Of a DNA stretch of 64,000 nt, positions 5,393 through 29,410 are shown in pieces. This DNA is from Candidatus Latescibacterota bacterium. Lineage in GTDB: Bacteria; Latescibacterota; UBA2968; UBA8231. Positions within the stretch are counted from its first letter, which is position 1. Each line of letters begins with the position of its first letter. A program made the translations under genes and the position numbers. The notes beneath the pieces were generated by a model. That model saw only the letters and a list, made by a program, of their open reading frames with translations. It searched no databases and was not told where the DNA came from. The DNA lies in contig JAJEIO010000029.1 of NCBI GenBank assembly GCA_022827835.1, forward strand, positions 62,001-126,000, read 5' to 3'.

Positions 5393-5404
5393 TGACGTGA
5401 TTTT

Positions 5405-6121
5405 ATGAAACGAAAAGTGAAATACATCGCATTGGTCTTGGCATTACTCGGCGGCAGCGTCTATGCCGAAGAAGCGGACGACTCGACGACTCGACTGAGC
5501 GGTTCGGCTGAGCTCACCGTCGAAGCCTCGCCGAAGTCTGAACTCGCCGAAGTCTCCAGCCGCGTCATTCTCTTTTTTGGCGATAGCTTGACCGCTGGCT
5601 ATGGCCTCGATCGCGAACAGGCTTTCCCGGCTTTGGTGCAGGCGCGGATCGATTCGCTCGGCTGGAACTTTGAGGTCTTCAATGCTGGGCTTGGCGGCGA
5701 GACCTCAGCCGGGGGATTGCGCCGCATTGACTGGCTCTTGCGCCGCCCCATTGACGTCTTTGTCCTCGAATTGGGAGCCAACGACGGCCTGCGCGGCATA
5801 GATCCCAAAGACACTCACGCCAACCTGCAACAAATCGTCGAGCGGGTGAAAGCGAAGAACCCCGAAGTAGCCCTAGTCATCGCCGGGATGCAGATGCCGC
5901 CCAATATGGGCGCGGAATACACAGGGGCGTTTGCCGCGATCTTCCCGGCGTTGGCACAGAAAAACGACGCGGCCTTGATCCCCTTCTTGTTAGAAGGCGT
6001 GGGCGACCAACCCGCGCTGAACCTGCCCGACGGCAACCACCCCAACGTCGAAGGCCATCAGATCGTCGCCGAAACCGTGTGGGCGACGCTGGGGCCGGTG
6101 CTGGAGGAGTTGCGTCGCTAG
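5405..6121 (+). CDS. tesA: TesA-like SGNH/GDSL esterase, secreted
   Basis: A 238-residue protein. Residues 1-21 are a signal peptide (a hydrophobic run ending in SVYA). Residues 22-52 form a low-complexity linker that contains a palindromic repeat. The SGNH hydrolase domain follows, with S61 in FFGDSLTAGYG, the glycine block NAGLGGET, N126 in GANDGLR and the D209/H212 pair in DGNHPN. Family members (TesA, arylesterases) hydrolyse acyl esters or thioesters in the periplasm. Its stop overlaps the end of a YbbP-like permease gene on the other strand. In E. coli, tesA sits beside ybbA-ybbP, so the linkage is probably meaningful. The native substrate is unknown. Confidence 0.9.
   Translation: MKRKVKYIALVLALLGGSVYAEEADDSTTRLSGSAELTVEASPKSELAEVSSRVILFFGDSLTAGYGLDREQAFPALVQARIDSLGWNFEVFNAGLGGETSAGGLRRIDWLLRRPIDVFVLELGANDGLRGIDPKDTHANLQQIVERVKAKNPEVALVIAGMQMPPNMGAEYTGAFAAIFPALAQKNDAALIPFLLEGVGDQPALNLPDGNHPNVEGHQIVAETVWATLGPVLEELRR
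5501..5527. repeat. Second copy of the palindromic repeat, inside tesA
   Basis: These 27 bases match the repeat at 4589-4614 (opposite strand) at TTCGGCTGAGCTCA and TCGAAGCC, differing by a short indel in the centre. Here they encode about residues 33-41 (GSAELTVEA), in the linker between the signal peptide and the catalytic domain. Confidence 0.55.
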
Positions 6122-8646
6122 CCGAGCGAGCGCAGGACTTCGAGTGGTGGGCTGCTGTGGACGCCTCGGCTGGAGATCATGCCGACGGCGACCGTTAGCA
6201 GACTGACCGCGGCAAAGGCGAGGATCAGCGGCAGATAGTCGGGCGCAAAGCTGATCTCGAAGAGATAGCGGTTCAAGGCCCAGACGCCCCCCAGCGACAG
6301 AATCACGCCCGTCGCCGCAGCGAAAGCTCCCAAAAACAGATATTCGAGCGCCATGATTGCTACCACTTGGCGGCGACTGGCTCCCAAGGTCTTGAGCAAG
6401 ACGCTTTCCTCGATGCGTTGATAGCGGCTGCTGGCAATCACGCCGACGAGCACGATCAGGCCAACCGAGACGCTGAAAAAGGCCATAAAGCGCACCACCA
6501 GCGAGACCTTGTCGAGGATGGTATCGACCGTGCTGAGAATGCTGCCGAGATCGATGACCGAGACATTGGGGAATCGGTGTACGGTGGACCGCTGCAGAGC
6601 GGCCATTTGCTCGGTAGTGGCAGCACGGGTGACGAGGACGTGGGATTGCGGTGCGGCTTCGAGGATGCCGGGCGGGAAGACCGCCAAAAAGTTGGGCATG
6701 ATGCGCTGCCAGTTGACTTGGCGCAGACTGCCGACGACCACATCGATCGGCACCCCTTGGACATCAAAGGTCAGCGAGTCGCCAACGCCAACGCCCAAAG
6801 AAGAGGCGACGCCTGTTTCCAAGGAGACGTAGAGGGTGTCGCTCGCGGGTTGGCTGCGCCACGTGCCGGCGACGATCTCTTCGGTCTCGGTGAGGAAGTC
6901 GCGGTAGGTCGCGCGGTACTCATGTCGCAAGGCCCAATTGCCGCGTCGGCGGCGGTTAGCGGTGGTATCGCGGAGTATGGCGCGGGCGGGTTGGCCTTTG
7001 ACGCTGTGGACGTGCATGGTGACGATGGGCACTTGTTGCAACAGCGGCAGATCCATCCCAGCGACGAGGGTGCTTAGCTCTTGGCGCTGATCGGTTTGGA
7101 TGTCGAAGAGCACGACGTTGGGGTTTTGGTCGGAGCCGACGCTTTTGATATGGGACAGCAGGTTGGTCTGGGTCAGGAATAGGGTGCTGAGCAGGAAAGT
7201 CCCCAGCCCGAGGCCCAACATCAGCAGCGTGGTCTGGTTGTTGGGTCGGTAGAGATTGGCCAGCCCCTGACGCCAGATATAGCTCCAAGAGGCGGGGAAG
7301 AACCGCCGAGTGCCGTAGATGATTGCGCGGGCCGTAAGCGTCAGAAGCGCAAAGGCGGCTCCAACCCCGCCGACAAAGCCAATGGCCAGCGGCCAGCGGT
7401 CGGTGAGCCGGAAGGCGAAGAGCGCGATTATCAGGACGATTCCCACATACAAAGCCCAGCGCAGCAGACCGCTGTCGGCCGGTTGGTCGTCTTCAAACGA
7501 GGCGCGCAGAGTCAAAAGCGGCGAGGTCTTGCGAATAGCCATCAGTGGCCGGGCGGCAAACAGCAGCGAAAGGCCAACGCCGAGGCCGAGACCCTCCAAG
7601 ACGGCGAGGAAATCAAAGCTCGGCTCGACCTGTAGAGGTAGTACGTCGGCGAGGACATTGGGGAGCAGGTAGAGAACTCCGACGCCGAGCAGGGCACCAA
7701 TGAGTGAGCCGATCAAGCCCATGCCCCCGGCTTGGATTAGATAGATCAAGACGGTCTGACGGGCTGTGGCACCAAGACTGCGCAGCACGGCGACCGTGGA
7801 TAATTTTTGCCGCGTGTAGGTGTGGATGGCGCTGGCCACGCCCACGCCGCCGAGCAGCAGGGCGATAAAGCTGCCGAGGTTTAAGAAGCGATAGAGGTTG
7901 TTGAGGGTGCGGCCGAGACGCGCCTTGCGCCTCTCAATGGTTTCGAGCCGGAGGCGGTCACCTCGGGTGTGCGGGCGGATGGACTTGGCTATCGCTTGGA
8001 CATCCCGCTCGGGGAAGTGGAAGAAGGCGGTGTAGGTGACGCGGCTACCTCGTTGGATCAGGTGAGTATCGTCGAGGTAGGACATCGGGATATAGACGCG
8101 CGGCTGGATGTCGCTGAAGAGGGCGTTCTCGCCGGGGATGCGCAGGAGGCGGCCGCCGATGAGAAAGACCGTATCGCCGATTTTGATCGAGTCGCCGACT
8201 GCCGCGCCAAACTGTAACATGAGAGCCTCGTCAACGAGGGCATGGGGCTGGGTGCGGAAGCTCTGCGCGGCCTCAGCCGGTGCTGTTTTTAGCTCGCCGT
8301 AAAAGGGGAAAGGGCCGGTGAGGGCGCGGATCTGGGCGAGGCGGGTGCTCTGGGTCTTGGGCAGGTAAATCATGGAATTGAAGGCAACTTGGTGCGCCTG
8401 AACCCCGCCGAGCGAGTCGATGAGCGCCTCGGTGGCGGGTGTGAAGGGCTGGCGACTCGTCAGTGCCATATCGGCACCTAAGAGCGCGGCGGCTTGTTGG
8501 TCCATCGCCTCTTGCAGCGTGGAACTGAGGCTGCTCAAGCCGACGAGTGCACCGATGCCGATGGAGATTGAAGAGGTAAAAAGCAGCAGTTTGCGGCGGT
8601 GGCTGCGGCTGTCGCGCCAGGCCATTTTGCCGAGCCAGCCTATCAT
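6118..8646 (-). CDS. FtsX-like ABC transporter permease (YbbP type)
   Basis: An 842-residue inner-membrane permease. One N-terminal TM segment is followed by a large periplasmic domain (about 45-250), a first cluster of TM segments from about 255 to 480, a second periplasmic domain and a C-terminal three-TM block. This two-module FtsX layout is typical of the YbbP/MacB-like extractive ABC family, which moves lipids or lipoproteins rather than small solutes. The start ATG overlaps the stop of the ATPase gene as ATGA, so the two subunits are coupled. The 3' end overlaps the tesA-like gene on the other strand. With a GDPD upstream, a role in envelope lipid turnover is a reasonable inference. Confidence 0.88.
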   Translation of the reverse strand: MIGWLGKMAWRDSRSHRRKLLLFTSSISIGIGALVGLSSLSSTLQEAMDQQAAALLGADMALTSRQPFTPATEALIDSLGGVQAHQVAFNSMIYLPKTQSTRLAQIRALTGPFPFYGELKTAPAEAAQSFRTQPHALVDEALMLQFGAAVGDSIKIGDTVFLIGGRLLRIPGENALFSDIQPRVYIPMSYLDDTHLIQRGSRVTYTAFFHFPERDVQAIAKSIRPHTRGDRLRLETIERRKARLGRTLNNLYRFLNLGSFIALLLGGVGVASAIHTYTRQKLSTVAVLRSLGATARQTVLIYLIQAGGMGLIGSLIGALLGVGVLYLLPNVLADVLPLQVEPSFDFLAVLEGLGLGVGLSLLFAARPLMAIRKTSPLLTLRASFEDDQPADSGLLRWALYVGIVLIIALFAFRLTDRWPLAIGFVGGVGAAFALLTLTARAIIYGTRRFFPASWSYIWRQGLANLYRPNNQTTLLMLGLGLGTFLLSTLFLTQTNLLSHIKSVGSDQNPNVVLFDIQTDQRQELSTLVAGMDLPLLQQVPIVTMHVHSVKGQPARAILRDTTANRRRRGNWALRHEYRATYRDFLTETEEIVAGTWRSQPASDTLYVSLETGVASSLGVGVGDSLTFDVQGVPIDVVVGSLRQVNWQRIMPNFLAVFPPGILEAAPQSHVLVTRAATTEQMAALQRSTVHRFPNVSVIDLGSILSTVDTILDKVSLVVRFMAFFSVSVGLIVLVGVIASSRYQRIEESVLLKTLGASRRQVVAIMALEYLFLGAFAAATGVILSLGGVWALNRYLFEISFAPDYLPLILAFAAVSLLTVAVGMISSRGVHSSPPLEVLRSLG

Positions 8647-9332
8647 GGGACTAACTGATCGTCGGCGACCCGGCCGCCTTGGAGGCGGATGACCCGCTGG
8701 GTGAGGCGAGCCAGCGTTAGATCGTGGGTGACCAAAATTAGGGTGGCACCGGATTCTTCGTTGAGGCTGAAGAGCAGGTCTCGCACTTTGCCACTAGTGC
8801 CGTCGTCGAGGTTGCCGGTAGGTTCGTCGGCAAAGAGGAGTGCGGGTCGGTTGATAAAGGCCCGTGCAAGCGCCACGCGTTGCTGCTCGCCTCCTGAAAG
8901 CTGCGCTGGGTAGTGATGCAGCCGGTCGCCCAATCCGACTCGGTTGAGGAGGTCAACGGCGTGCTCGCGGACGTTTGGCTCGCGGCGCAATTCGAGTGGT
9001 ACCATGGCGTTTTCGAGGGCGCTGAGGGTGGGGATGAGCTGGAAGGTTTGGAAGACGAAGCCGACCTTTTCGCTGCGGAGATGCGCTCGCTGGTCTTCGT
9101 CGAGACCGTCTAAATCCACGCCGTCGAGCGCGACCGAGCCCGAGCTGGCGCGATCTAGCCCGGCGCACAATCCGAGTAGCGTGGTTTTGCCGCTGCCCGA
9201 GGGGCCGACGACTGCGCAGGTAGCTCCGGTCGCGAGGGAGAAACTCACATCGTCGAGGACGGTCAGGGCGCTTGGCCCCGTGCCGTAGGTTTTGGTCAGG
9301 TGTTGTACGTTCAGGGCTACTGTGTCGCCCAT
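8643..9332 (-). CDS. ABC transporter ATP-binding protein (YbbA/LolD type)
   Basis: A 229-residue ATPase of the MacB/LolD/YbbA class. It has Walker A GPSGSGKTTL, Q-loop FQTFQLIPTL, signature LSGGEQQRVALARA, Walker B LLFADEPTGNLD and a switch histidine in VTHD. The start at 9332 is preceded by GAGGAGA; the longer open frame upstream lies in the antisense of the GDPD gene and is not coding. It overlaps the GDPD stop by 16 bases and hands over to the permease by ATGA. It powers the adjacent FtsX-like permease. Confidence 0.93.
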   Translation of the reverse strand: MGDTVALNVQHLTKTYGTGPSALTVLDDVSFSLATGATCAVVGPSGSGKTTLLGLCAGLDRASSGSVALDGVDLDGLDEDQRAHLRSEKVGFVFQTFQLIPTLSALENAMVPLELRREPNVREHAVDLLNRVGLGDRLHHYPAQLSGGEQQRVALARAFINRPALLFADEPTGNLDDGTSGKVRDLLFSLNEESGATLILVTHDLTLARLTQRVIRLQGGRVADDQLVP

Positions 9333-16344: not shown

Positions 16345-16698
16345 TTACCGCGCCTGCTTTTCGCGGATGCGGGCGGCGCGACCTTTGCGACCGCGTAAGT
16401 AAAACAGGCGGGCGCGGCGCACCCGGCCCTCGCGCATGCGCTCGATCTTGGATATGCGCGGCGAGTGGATGGGGAAGATGCGCTCAATGGCAATGCCCTG
16501 AGAGATCTTGCGCACAGTAAAGGTCTCTTGGATGCCGCTGCCTCTGCGCTGGATGACGGTTCCTTCAAAGATTTGGGTGCGCTCCTTGTCGCCCTCGATG
16601 ACCCGCACGTGGATGCGCACGGTGTCGCCAGCGCCGAATTCGGGAAGATCGGTTTTGAGTTGGTCCGAGGTTAGTTCGCGCAGGATACTTGAGTCCAT
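16345..16698 (-). CDS. rplS: 50S ribosomal protein L19
   Basis: A 117-residue L19. The segments [59 protein letters not shown] and [20 protein letters not shown] are canonical. L19 sits at the 30S-50S interface. The ATG at 16698 is chosen from the family N-terminus. It follows trmD by 16 bases as the last gene of the conserved rpsP-rimM-trmD-rplS cluster. Confidence 0.97.
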
Positions 16699-16714: not shown

Positions 16715-17455
16715 TTACGGGGCTTCTTCCAGCCCTTGCTCCTGCCAAGTGGCGATGAGCTGTTGTTCTTCTTCGTCGAGTTCGATCTGTTGCAGCAAGT
16801 CGGGCCGACGCGCAAACGTGCGCCGCAGGGCTTGGCGTCGCCGCCAGTGCTCTATGCGCTCGTGGTCGCCGGAAAGCAGCGCATCGGGGACGCGCTGGCC
16901 GCGGAATTCAACTGGCCGCGTGTACCAAGGGCAATCGAGTACGGCCTCTTGGAATGAGTCGTCCAAGGCCGAAGAGAAGTTGCCCAAAACGTTGGGTATG
17001 AGCCGAGCCACCGCGTCGATGAGGACGAGGGCGGCCGGCTCGCCGCCGGTGAGCACGTAGTCGCCGATTGAAATTTCACGGTCGATAAGTCCAGTACGGA
17101 TGCGCTCATCTACTCCTTTATAATGCCCGCACAACAGCACCAACCGCTCCTCGAGCGCCAACTCGATGGCGAGCGCTTGGTTGAGCGGCTGGCCGTCGGC
17201 TGTCAGATAAATGCAGCGGCCAGTCGCTAGGCCCCGCTCCTGCCAAAGCTGGTACACAGGCTCGGGCTTGAGGACCATGCCGCCGCCGCCGCCGTAAGGC
17301 GCGTCATCTACGGTGCGGTGTTTATCGGTCGCGCAATCGCGTGGGTCGTGGGTCTCGACGGTCAACAGGCCCCGGGCGATGGCGCGGGCCATCATGCTGG
17401 TCGCCAACGGCGAGGCAAAAAAATCCGGAAAGAGCGTTACAATGTCTATTTTCAT
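16715..17455 (-). CDS. trmD: tRNA (guanine-N1)-methyltransferase
   Basis: A 246-residue TrmD that methylates G37 of tRNAs with S-adenosylmethionine and prevents frameshifting. The SPOUT trefoil-knot motifs are present: [29 protein letters not shown] and [32 protein letters not shown] is the usual start. The ATG overlaps the end of rimM by 4 bases. Length is normal. Confidence 0.97.
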
Positions 17456-17961
17456 GGTCCAAATAGCTCTTCAATGCCCCGCACGACGACCCGACCCGGC
17501 GCGATTTCCACGACAAAGTCGCCGACAGCCGGCACAAGGGCTTCGCCTTTGGCTCCGCGGACCACGTAAACGTCTGTCGTCGGCATAGATAAGACCTCGA
17601 CGATGTGGCCCAATGGTTGCCCCTCCGAATTGACGACCACGCAATCTACTAGGTCGTCTATGTAGTGCGTGCCCTCCGGCAGGGGATCGCGCTGATCGAG
17701 GGCGATGGTAACGTAGCCCCCGGCCAAGATTGAACGCGCCTGTTCGGGCGAGTCAATGCCAGCGAATTTGAGCAACAAGCTCTTAGCGTCTGTGCGCCAG
17801 CGCTCGAGTTCGAGCGGCTGGTCGGGTCGGCCCGCACATTGGAGGACGACATCCCGCAGGTCGCTGAAGCGCTCGATGCGGTGAGTCAGGGCTTGGGCCC
17901 GAACCTCGCCGCGCACTCCCCACGGGCGGGAGATATAGGCTACGGCGACGCGCCCGGCCAT
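17452..17961 (-). CDS. rimM: Ribosome maturation factor RimM
   Basis: A 169-residue RimM needed for 16S rRNA processing near S19. The N-terminal barrel (VAVAYISRPWGVRGEVRAQ) and the C-terminal PRC barrel (HYIDDLVDCVVVNSEGQPLG, then EALVPAVGDFVVEI) are both recognisable. It precedes trmD with an ATGA overlap. It begins only 12 bases after the second stop of the extended rpsP reading frame. No KH-domain gene (khpA) lies between rpsP and rimM, as in proteobacteria. Confidence 0.95.
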   Translation of the reverse strand: MAGRVAVAYISRPWGVRGEVRAQALTHRIERFSDLRDVVLQCAGRPDQPLELERWRTDAKSLLLKFAGIDSPEQARSILAGGYVTIALDQRDPLPEGTHYIDDLVDCVVVNSEGQPLGHIVEVLSMPTTDVYVVRGAKGEALVPAVGDFVVEIAPGRVVVRGIEELFGP

Positions 17962-17973
17962 GCGGCTATCCGT

Positions 17974-18096
17974 CTATTTTTCCTTTTGCTCAACCGATTC
18001 GGCTGATTCAGCGGCTGCCTGTTCGGCTTCGGCTGGCGCAGCTTCTTCTTGCTCAACCGGTTCGGCTGATTCAGCGGCTTCTGGCTCAGCAGCTAC
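17974..18096 (-). other. In-frame continuation of the rpsP acidic tail beyond an amber stop
   Basis: Immediately after the rpsP TAG (18099-18097) the same frame runs 40 more codons to a second TAG at 17976-17974. It encodes more of the same Ala/Glu repeat: AAEPEAAESAEPVEQEEAAP, then AEAEQAAAESAESVEQKEK. The match of repeat units on both sides of the stop suggests the tail was once longer and was cut by a nonsense change, or is reached by read-through. A sequencing error is also possible. Confidence 0.6.
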
Positions 18097-18537
18097 CTAC
18101 TCGTCCGGTGCAACTTCTTCTTGCTCGACCGATTCAGCCGATTCAGCGGTTGCCTGTTCGTCCTGTTCGACTGGTTCAGCGGCTTCTTGCTCAACCGGTT
18201 CAGCCGGTTGGACTGGCGCGGCCGCTGCTTTCTTGCGCCGGCGCTTGGGCTTGTCGCCTGTGAGGGCGTCTTCGCGCACCCGGCCCTCCCAGCCCTGCCA
18301 GCGGGCCAATATCCCTTGGCTGTGGAAGAGGTCGGCGACGGTCTCGGTCATCTGCGCGCCTTTGTTGAGCCACTCGATGGCGCGCTCTTCGTCGATTTTG
18401 ACGCTGGCGTGCATGGGGTCGTAAAGACCCACCTCTGCGAGGGAGCGGCCGTTGCGGGCGACGCTGACGTGAGCAGCGACGATTCGGTAGTAAGGCTGTT
18501 TGCGTTTGCCTATTCTCTTAAGGCGAAGTTTGACCAA
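18097..18537 (-). CDS. rpsP: 30S ribosomal protein S16 with acidic C-terminal extension
   Basis: S16 proper occupies residues 1-80 (VKLRLKRIGKRKQPYYRIVA, then GRSLAEVGLYDPM and RAIEWLNKGAQMTETVADLF), a universal 30S assembly protein. A tail of some 50 residues rich in Ala, Glu and Val follows (QPAEPVEQEAAEPVEQDE type repeats), preceded by a basic KPKRRRKKAA patch. Tails like this occur in several phyla. The amber stop at 18097 falls inside the repeat, and the repeat continues in frame for 40 codons (separate entry). It lies downstream of ffh, as in many bacteria. Confidence 0.95.
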   Translation of the reverse strand: MVKLRLKRIGKRKQPYYRIVAAHVSVARNGRSLAEVGLYDPMHASVKIDEERAIEWLNKGAQMTETVADLFHSQGILARWQGWEGRVREDALTGDKPKRRRKKAAAAPVQPAEPVEQEAAEPVEQDEQATAESAESVEQEEVAPDE

Positions 18538-18562
18538 TGCTATTCTCCTTGGCGAAGGATGC

Positions 18563-19891
18563 CTAGCCCACGAGGGGCATTCTCATTTTCAAGCGGCCGC
18601 CTTTGGCGCGGCTCATCTGCCTGAGCATTTTCTGCATCATGTGAAATTGTTTGACTAGTTGATTCACCTCTTGGACGCTGGTGCCGCTACCACGGGCGAT
18701 GCGCTTGCGGCGGCTGCCGTTGAGAATTTTGGGTTGGACTCGCTCTTGGCGGGTCATGGAATTGATGATGGCCTCGACTTGGGTGAACGCGCTATCGTCG
18801 AGCTGCATGTTCTTAGCAGCTTTACCACCTCCGGGAATCATGCCCATGAGCTGGTCGAGCGGCCCCATGCGGCGCACTGCTTGCAACTGCGAGAGAAAAT
18901 CCTCAAAGGTGAAGGAGGCCCGGCGGAACTTTTCTTCTAGCTCTTTGGCCCGGTCGCGCTCCATGGCTTGCTCGGCCTTTTCCACCAGCGAGACAATGTC
19001 GCCCATGCCGAGGATGCGCGAGGCCATGCGGTCGGGGTGAAAAGACTCTAGGTCTTCGATTTTCTCGCCGGTGCCGACGAATTTGATCGGCCGGCCGGTG
19101 ACGGAGCGAATCGACAGTGCAGCTCCACCGCGGGCATCGCTGTCGAGCTTGGTCAGGGCGCAGCCGGTAAATGCGAGGCGCTGGTTAAAGCGGGCGGCGG
19201 TTTCCACGGCGTCTTGGCCCAGCATGCTGTCGGCGACAAAGAGGATCTCGTGCGGCTCGACGGCCTGCTGAATGCGATCTAGTTCGTCCATCATCTCTTC
19301 GTCGATGCTCAGGCGGCCCGCCGTATCTATGAGTGCGATGCTGCGGTGAGTCTGGCGGGCTTGGTCGATCCCGCGACGACAGATGGCGACTGGATCGACA
19401 CCTGCAGGTTGGCTGAAAACGGGCACGTCGATAGAGGCTCCCAGCGATTGGAGTTGGGCTACGGCGGCCGGGCGATACACGTCGGCGGCGATCAACAGTG
19501 GCGGTCGGCCTTTGTCCTTGAATTGACGGGCTATCTTGGCAGCCATCGTCGTCTTGCCACAGCCCTGCAGGCCGACGAGCATGACGACGGTGGGAGGGTG
19601 TTCGGCGAGATTGAGCGGGCTGTTGTTGCCCCCCAGCAGGGCGATGAGTTCGCTGTGGACGATTTTGACTAGCTGCTGGCCCGGGGTCAGGCTCTTGAGG
19701 ACGTCTTGGCCGAGGGCCTGCTCTTTGACCCGCTGAATAAAGTCCTTGGCGACCTTGAAGTTGACGTCGGCTTCGAGCAGAGAACGGCGAATTTGGCGCA
19801 GGGTATCGTCGATGTTGCGCTCGGTGATGCGTCCCTGCCCGCGGAGCGAGCGGAATAGGTCGTCAAAGCGTTCGCTGAGTCGGTCAAACAT
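18563..19891 (-). CDS. ffh: Signal recognition particle protein Ffh (SRP54)
   Basis: A 442-residue SRP GTPase that delivers nascent membrane and secreted proteins to the translocon. The N domain (1-90) is followed by the G domain with G1 GLQGCGKTT at 107-115, DTAGR, TKLD and GTGEK. The Met-rich M domain (about 320-440) has the SRP RNA-binding RRKRIARGSG motif and the Met-rich QFHMMQKMLRQM helix. It heads the conserved ffh-rpsP-rimM-trmD-rplS cluster; an AT-rich promoter lies just upstream. Confidence 0.97.
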   Translation of the reverse strand: MFDRLSERFDDLFRSLRGQGRITERNIDDTLRQIRRSLLEADVNFKVAKDFIQRVKEQALGQDVLKSLTPGQQLVKIVHSELIALLGGNNSPLNLAEHPPTVVMLVGLQGCGKTTMAAKIARQFKDKGRPPLLIAADVYRPAAVAQLQSLGASIDVPVFSQPAGVDPVAICRRGIDQARQTHRSIALIDTAGRLSIDEEMMDELDRIQQAVEPHEILFVADSMLGQDAVETAARFNQRLAFTGCALTKLDSDARGGAALSIRSVTGRPIKFVGTGEKIEDLESFHPDRMASRILGMGDIVSLVEKAEQAMERDRAKELEEKFRRASFTFEDFLSQLQAVRRMGPLDQLMGMIPGGGKAAKNMQLDDSAFTQVEAIINSMTRQERVQPKILNGSRRKRIARGSGTSVQEVNQLVKQFHMMQKMLRQMSRAKGGRLKMRMPLVG

Positions 19892-27857: not shown

Positions 27858-28064
27858 ATGCTCTACACCTTGTTGGCCATATTGTTGCTAGTTGTCGTGG
27901 TGCTGAAGTTCTGGTCGCCCTTTGGCCAGCGCTGCCCCCAGTGCCAAGTGCGCCGGGAGGATGCGGAATATCCCTTGTGTCCAAATTGCGGGTGGATTTA
28001 CGAAGTGCCTGGGGAAGAAGACGATGATTTTGCGCCGGACGACGACGAAAATGCAAAATTCTGA
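27858..28064 (+). CDS. Small membrane protein with a zinc-ribbon
   Basis: A 68-residue protein. A TM helix (residues 2-18) is followed by two CxxC pairs (CPQC and CPNCGW) that form a zinc ribbon, then an acidic tail (GEEDDDFAPDDDENAKF). It starts 8 bases after the GDPD gene. Such small proteins are often hypothetical; no function can be assigned. Confidence 0.65.
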   Translation: MLYTLLAILLLVVVVLKFWSPFGQRCPQCQVRREDAEYPLCPNCGWIYEVPGEEDDDFAPDDDENAKF

Positions 28065-28100
28065 AGGCCGCGCTGCCGCGCTGTCGCGCCCTGTTTGCGC

Positions 28101-28130
28101 TTGACAATACCTTGTACTTCCCTTTAGATT
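28101..28130 (+). promoter_or_regulatory. sigma70-type promoter for the lipoprotein gene
   Basis: A perfect TTGACA (28101-28106) and TAGATT (28125-28130) with an 18-base spacer lie in the gap between the zinc-ribbon gene and the lipoprotein. Transcription would begin near 28137, giving a leader of about 45 bases. Confidence 0.55.
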
Positions 28131-28182
28131 GTCTCTGATTATATAGGGAAGCACAGAACGTTCAAACTCAGGAAGGTGAACC

Positions 28183-28806
28183 ATGAAAATGCGGGCAATA
28201 TCGCTGTTTTTCGCCGTCGCGGTTTTGGCGGGCTGTGACGACCCTCCCACAGCCGAGCTCGACGCGGCCAAGCAAGCCCTTGACACAGCCCGGGACGCCG
28301 ACGCCGAGCGCTTTGCCGCCAGCGAATACTCGGCCGCGCAGCGCGCGTACAGCGAAGCCGAAACAACGACCAAAACCGAAGACGAGCGCTTTTTCCTATT
28401 CAAGGACTTTGAGCAGGCGCGGGCGCAAATCGCCGATGCCAAGACCAAAGCCACGCGGGCAGAGTCGGCTGCGCAAGCCGAAAAGAAACGCCAGCGGGAG
28501 TCGGCCGAAGCTGCTATTGCCACTGCCCGCGACGCGGTTGCTGCCGCATATACCAGCTTAGAGGAAGCGCCGTCGGGCAAGGGCACGGAAGCCGATATTG
28601 AGGAATTGCGCGTCGAGCTGAGCACGGCCGACGCCGATCTAGACGCGGCCGAAGCCGCGGTGGACAGCGAGCATTTCTCCGATGCCGAGTCCCTCGCCGA
28701 AAGCGCGGATCTGAAGGCTACCGAGGTCGCCGACGGCGTGATAGTGGCCGTGGATAGATACCACGCGCTGGTCGAGGAGATGCGTCCTTGGTACGAGCGC
28801 TTCTGA
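28183..28806 (+). CDS. Helical lipoprotein (DUF4398-like)
   Basis: A 207-residue lipoprotein. A signal peptide ends in a lipobox (VLAGC, cysteine at about residue 18). The mature part is almost wholly alpha-helical, rich in Ala, Glu, Asp and Lys, and likely coiled coil (for example ELDAAKQALDTARDADAERF). Similar short lipoproteins of the DUF4398 type are anchored to a membrane and contact the cell wall. It lies 4 bases before an L,D-transpeptidase gene, which hints at a role in envelope structure. The exact family is uncertain. Confidence 0.75.
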   Translation: MKMRAISLFFAVAVLAGCDDPPTAELDAAKQALDTARDADAERFAASEYSAAQRAYSEAETTTKTEDERFFLFKDFEQARAQIADAKTKATRAESAAQAEKKRQRESAEAAIATARDAVAAAYTSLEEAPSGKGTEADIEELRVELSTADADLDAAEAAVDSEHFSDAESLAESADLKATEVADGVIVAVDRYHALVEEMRPWYERF

Positions 28807-28810
28807 GCGT

Positions 28811-29410
28811 GTGCCATTGCAAGCTTCAATCACAGGCGGCCGGGAATTGCTCCCGGTCGCTTTATTTTTTTTCGCGCTGTTGTGGGGGCCGCCCGCCGCG
28901 CGTGCGTCTGCGCTCTGGTTAGAGCATCAGCAACTGGTGCAAGCTGTTGAGCGCCACGATATAGCTACGCCCTACATCGTCATCAATACCCAAGACAATC
29001 TAATTCTGCTCCGCGAGGGGGAGCAGGTGTTGCGCCAAGCCGCTTGTGCAACGGGCAGCGGTCGCAAGCTCGAAGGGGCTAAGCGGTGGCATCGCTGGAC
29101 CTTCGACACCCCCAAAGGCCGCTTCGCCATCCGCCGCAAAGTCGCCGACCCCCTATGGACCCGGCCGACTTGGTACTTTATTGAAAACGATGAGGAGATT
29201 CCCATCTTTGCCGAGGACCCGAGGCGGTTCCAACGCGGAGTCTTGGGCGCGTATGCATTGTACTTCCTCAAGGATTTTATGATTCACGGTACGCTCTTTG
29301 AAATCAACTTGGGCAAGAGCATTACTCACGGCTGCGTCCGGGTGGGCAGCGAGGACTTGGAGTACCTGTACGAAGCTGTCGAAATCGGCTGGCCGGTCTT
29401 CATCTACTGA
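28811..29410 (+). CDS. L,D-transpeptidase (YkuD domain)
   Basis: A 199-residue secreted YkuD enzyme. The signal segment covers residues 10-35. The catalytic block at about 156-178 contains HG in MIHGTLFEIN and the SxxxC nucleophile arrangement in GKSITHGCVRV. These enzymes make 3-3 peptidoglycan crosslinks or attach lipoproteins to the wall; the neighbouring lipoprotein suggests the second activity. The start is GTG at 28811. It ends by overlapping the start of the next gene, a diverged copy. Confidence 0.9.
   Translation: MPLQASITGGRELLPVALFFFALLWGPPAARASALWLEHQQLVQAVERHDIATPYIVINTQDNLILLREGEQVLRQAACATGSGRKLEGAKRWHRWTFDTPKGRFAIRRKVADPLWTRPTWYFIENDEEIPIFAEDPRRFQRGVLGAYALYFLKDFMIHGTLFEINLGKSITHGCVRVGSEDLEYLYEAVEIGWPVFIY

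Follow-up and report, generated by a model that had tools for sequence, protein, structure and literature searches.

A probable recent nonsense change in the repetitive acidic tail of ribosomal protein S16 in a Latescibacterota genome

Why should an amber codon interrupt the acidic C-terminal tail of ribosomal protein S16, with the same repeat running on in frame beyond it? The question is raised by rpsP in the window, the 64 kb stretch of DNA analysed here. The identity of the gene is supported by matches to the NCBIfam model TIGR00002 (90.8 bits, cut-off 45.3) and to PF00886 (70 bits, cut-off 27), with the ffh-rpsP-rimM-trmD-rplS neighbourhood present as expected for bS16 (Table 1), and with no other S16 match in the whole assembly. 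The TTG start codon (18535-18537) is common to the window and the nine same-genus relatives examined, and the S16 core is 80–93% identical to that of seven records labelled Candidatus Latescibacterota, Latescibacteria or Gemmatimonadetes. Nothing bearing on an S16 amber was found in the portion of the literature accessible to our search.

Table 1. Features of the rpsP locus, in positions of the window.
Feature	Position	Strand	Remarks
rpsP (ribosomal protein S16)	18097..18537	-	TTG start; 146 aa as truncated
S16 core and acidic tail			core ~residues 1-104; acidic tail from ~105
Amber TAG	18097..18099	-	CAG (Gln) in the homologous G001 tail; from codon comparison
Putative former rpsP 3' end	17974..18096	-	40 Ala/Glu-repeat codons plus ancestral TAG (17974-17976)
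Imperfect tandem array encoding the tail	17986..18201	-	period ~72 nt
ffh (signal recognition particle protein)	18563..19891	-	upstream neighbour of rpsP
rimM	17452..17961	-	downstream of rpsP
trmD	16715..17455	-	downstream neighbour
rplS (L19)	16345..16698	-	downstream neighbour; coding start inside a longer ORF, approximate

The original prediction held that the rpsP tail stops at a TAG and that its repeat goes on in frame for 40 codons to a second TAG, and this is borne out by the codons, by their composition, and by the tandem array. Both stops read TAG in the same frame of the minus strand, and the 40 codons between them read VAAEPEAAESAEPVEQEEAAPAEAEQAAAESAESVEQKEK, with 65% Ala+Glu. A content of at least 65% Ala+Glu is reached by only 13 of the 127,756 40-codon windows in the six frames of the 64 kb, a count that includes overlapping windows and those of the tail itself, and Tandem Repeats Finder reports a single array (period 72, 3.2 copies) extending across the amber. 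Given the rarity of such Ala/Glu richness and the one array spanning the stop, the continuation of the repeat is not a matter of chance.

The origin of the amber is best seen by comparison with the congener G001, whose S16 is 91% identical over the core and whose tail is unbroken (182 codons). Where the window reads GCA CCG GAC GAG TAG GTA GCT GCT GAG, G001 reads GCA CCG GAC GAA CAG GTA GCT GCT GAA, with the homologous codon being a sense codon (CAG, Gln) one base from the TAG of the window; G001 does not terminate at this codon but carries the repeat further. CAG also occurs in like register in a repeat copy further along the tail of the window (EAEQAAAE). The codon homology rests on the local nucleotide match, with global protein alignment setting the repeats differently, as is usual with tandem repeats, and on every reading of the local match the amber's place in the unit is occupied in the relatives by a Gln codon (CAG or CAA). 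The distance from the second TAG to the ATG of rimM is 12 nt, equal to that between the rpsP stop and rimM in G001 and G004 (9–11 nt in G010, G003, and G007), and this spacing identifies the second TAG as the ancestral rpsP stop. TAG is also the stop of all eight complete congener rpsP genes.

The best explanation, to which we give a probability of roughly 80%, is that the S16 tail is dispensable and variable in length and has recently acquired a nonsense change, which is tolerated. The ancestral rpsP of the genus would have encoded an S16 whose tail was acidic, of low complexity (Ala/Glu/Pro/Gln), and variable in length as repeat units were gained or lost in frame. In the lineage of the window, a single C-to-T transition (CAG to TAG) is the simplest history of the amber, and would have left an S16 of 146 aa rather than 187. 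The amber would be tolerated because the protein retains the S16 fold together with half of its acidic tail and stays inside the congener range of lengths, whilst the 40 codons after the amber would be leftover coding sequence, young enough to look coding still.

The survey of rpsP loci is consistent with this explanation. A search for S16 covered the genome of the window together with 59 relatives, and gave a match in 58 of the 60 (G002 and G050 being without); the rpsP loci of 55 of these were examined (G049, G053, and G056 were left out), and two of them (G009 and G021) run off their contigs, leaving 53 loci with a visible stop. Among these 53, an Ala/Glu-rich continuation past the stop is found in the window only (Ala+Glu 0.73 of the next 30 codons, the next highest value being 0.27), and the amber arrangement is shared by no relative. 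The S16 lengths of the eight congeners with a complete gene are 182, 115, 149, 134, 149, 120, 135, and 150 aa, such that the truncated protein of the window falls within the normal range of 115–182 aa; a comparison of tail lengths among relatives, proposed with the original prediction, thus fits an unimportant tail. The acidic tail of the truncated S16 comprises 42 residues with a net charge of -14, compared with 45 residues and -13 in G004, and 46 residues and -14 in G010, while the full-length tail to the second TAG would carry -25. The truncated S16 keeps its fold and an acidic tail, and so resembles the normal proteins of the congeners, with the change itself probably neutral. The acidic tail of S16 in this genus is therefore long, differs in length between members, and can be halved by a single change, so that a fixed tail length is probably not needed.

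The explanation by nonsense change presumes that the amber base is real, as we believe it to be. Alternatively, the TAG may be a consensus error or the base of a minority strain, with the real gene carrying CAG and an unbroken tail of 187 codons. This appears unlikely given that the amber is far from the ends of its 381 kb contig, and that the crude gene calls in the window include no convincing second gene with a stop set against a sense codon in relatives. However, the TAG is one substitution from CAG, the source assembly is a draft (5.84 Mb in 64 contigs, with 94.27% completeness and 8.01% contamination, the congener assemblies having similar contamination values), and the segment past the amber has decayed little, apart from divergence of the kind seen in coding sequence.

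The divergence of that segment bears on the age of the amber. Aligned to G001, it shows 3, 3, and 9 mismatches at codon positions 1, 2, and 3 respectively (39 sites for each position), and the only gaps measure 18 and 6 nt; the excess at third positions (9 of 15 mismatches) reaches a p value of only ~0.03. The pN/pS ratio after the stop is 0.16 against G001 and 0.27 against G004, compared with 0.14–0.17 for the core, in blocks picked by peptide similarity, which biases pN low; the nucleotide alignment is less biased in this respect. Most of the divergence probably arose while the segment was coding, implying either that the amber arose late compared with the split from G001, or that some translation of the segment continues. 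Coding constraint past the amber is expected under read-through also, and a stretch of 40 codons is too short to tell a recent change from continued translation. Near the old C-terminus, the window alone has EQKE in place of the EQEE of G001, G003, G004, G007, and G010, a departure that gives a slight hint of relaxed constraint.

Read-through of the UAG, whether regulated or basal, would yield a short and a long S16, with synthesis of the long form also bringing ribosomes to the ancestral stop before rimM. The frame, the repeat, and the ancestral stop are all intact past the amber, and the pN/pS values given above, lowered as they are by the choice of blocks, are in keeping with translation of the segment; we nevertheless consider read-through very unlikely, and termination at the amber is expected to be efficient. 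No CTA anticodon is present among the 47 tRNA genes found with the Rfam model in this 94% complete assembly, all 47 of which were typed by ARAGORN, and thus the amber-suppressing tRNA suggested as a check on the original prediction was not found amongst them. RF1 is present (496.5 bits, cut-off 423.25), and the PylS profile gives nothing over its cut-off (best score 22.4 bits, compared with 178.15). The RNA structure directly after the amber is unremarkable, with the fold of the following 80 nt having a z-score of -1.63 and 10 of 200 shuffles being as stable; a stretch deeper in the repeat reaches -2.73, but is away from the stop. Neither Rfam families nor tRNA genes were found within the window. 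The restriction of the amber to this genome among the loci examined and the EQKE departure also argue against read-through. Near-cognate read-through, for its part, needs no suppressor tRNA.

The use of TAG elsewhere in the window points the same way. TAG ends 17 of the 64 crude gene calls, which were made longest-first and of which 10 had no homolog in the compared DNA; this procedure displaced rpsP in favour of a longer frame on the opposite strand, and rpsP was judged from direct comparison of the loci instead. There are 31 gene-by-relative comparisons of TAG-ended calls with an identity of at least 75%. In 17 of them the TAG falls on a stop in the relative, 10 are alignments that miss the stop or begin past it, three have an earlier stop inside the relative, and one meets a sense codon. 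The frame behind this lone sense codon (27888-28829) is interrupted by stops in two of the three relatives, and is probably not a gene. TAG is, by these comparisons, an ordinary stop in the window. Genome-wide reassignment of TAG to a sense codon, in favour of which nothing was found, is scarcely credible, with RF1 present, a cognate tRNA not found among the 47 genes, the TAG-ended calls mostly aligned with the stops of relatives, and the tail itself terminating in TAG; both reassignment and a suppressor tRNA were rejected, on the presence of RF1, the lack of a CTA anticodon, and the PylS score below cut-off. The two readings originally offered for the locus have therefore fared differently. 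That of a nonsense change, recent and in a tail of little importance, is supported by the CAG codon of G001, by the agreement of the relatives' stop with the second TAG, and by the variable tail length, whereas read-through giving two forms of S16 finds no specific support, with TAG in normal use and the arrangement unshared.

The amber may also have consequences for rimM. In five relatives a Shine-Dalgarno-like site before rimM overlaps the rpsP stop, with hybridisation energies between -6.3 and -7.1 kcal/mol; the corresponding region of the window (17962-17976, minus strand) has GACGGA in its place, with a best duplex of -3.3 kcal/mol; the changed site and the rpsP amber thus occur in the same genome. 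With the first stop lying 135 nt upstream of rimM, stop-start coupling between rpsP and rimM should be weaker in the window, a side effect that we infer may be real. A further elaboration, which we regard as more improbable still than read-through in general, is that partial read-through of the amber provides two S16 forms, with acidic tails differing ~twofold in length, and couples tail length to the level of RimM. Since the rimM site that overlaps the old rpsP stop in relatives is degraded here, read-through would set the supply of ribosomes reaching rimM, and, if true, S16 tail length would be coupled to the level of a maturation factor. The long S16, if detected, would be a case of a ribosomal protein gene whose amber is naturally read through.

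Long-tailed bS16 proteins are known from the structures with chains 5v93_p (162 aa), 32nj_P (156 aa), and 7jil_u (188 aa), the sources of which we take to be mycobacteria and Flavobacterium. As in the window, a long tail follows the S16 core in these chains, with phmmer matching residues 2-141 of the query to residues 3-144 of 5v93_p, running into the tail; tail matches between phyla may, however, reflect composition rather than descent. In contrast to these chains, the tail of the window is the Ala/Glu/Pro/Gln repeat of a Latescibacterota genus, cut by an amber. The proposed nonsense change is otherwise like any ordinary C-terminal nonsense change, in which a single transition creates the stop, the former frame persists along with its own stop, and the essential core is kept, the sole difference being its place in a ribosomal protein gene.

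Two further observations concern stops and open frames in this DNA. In an RF2-like gene (G000:C56:31100-32600) an in-frame TGA occurs early, and coding continues in the +1 frame, a layout like that of the known prfB autoregulatory frameshift. Long open frames opposite real genes are common in the window, and mislead simple gene calling; examples are 18121-18624 on the plus strand, opposite rpsP, and several within 5396-9288, opposite an 842-aa frame (6118-8646).
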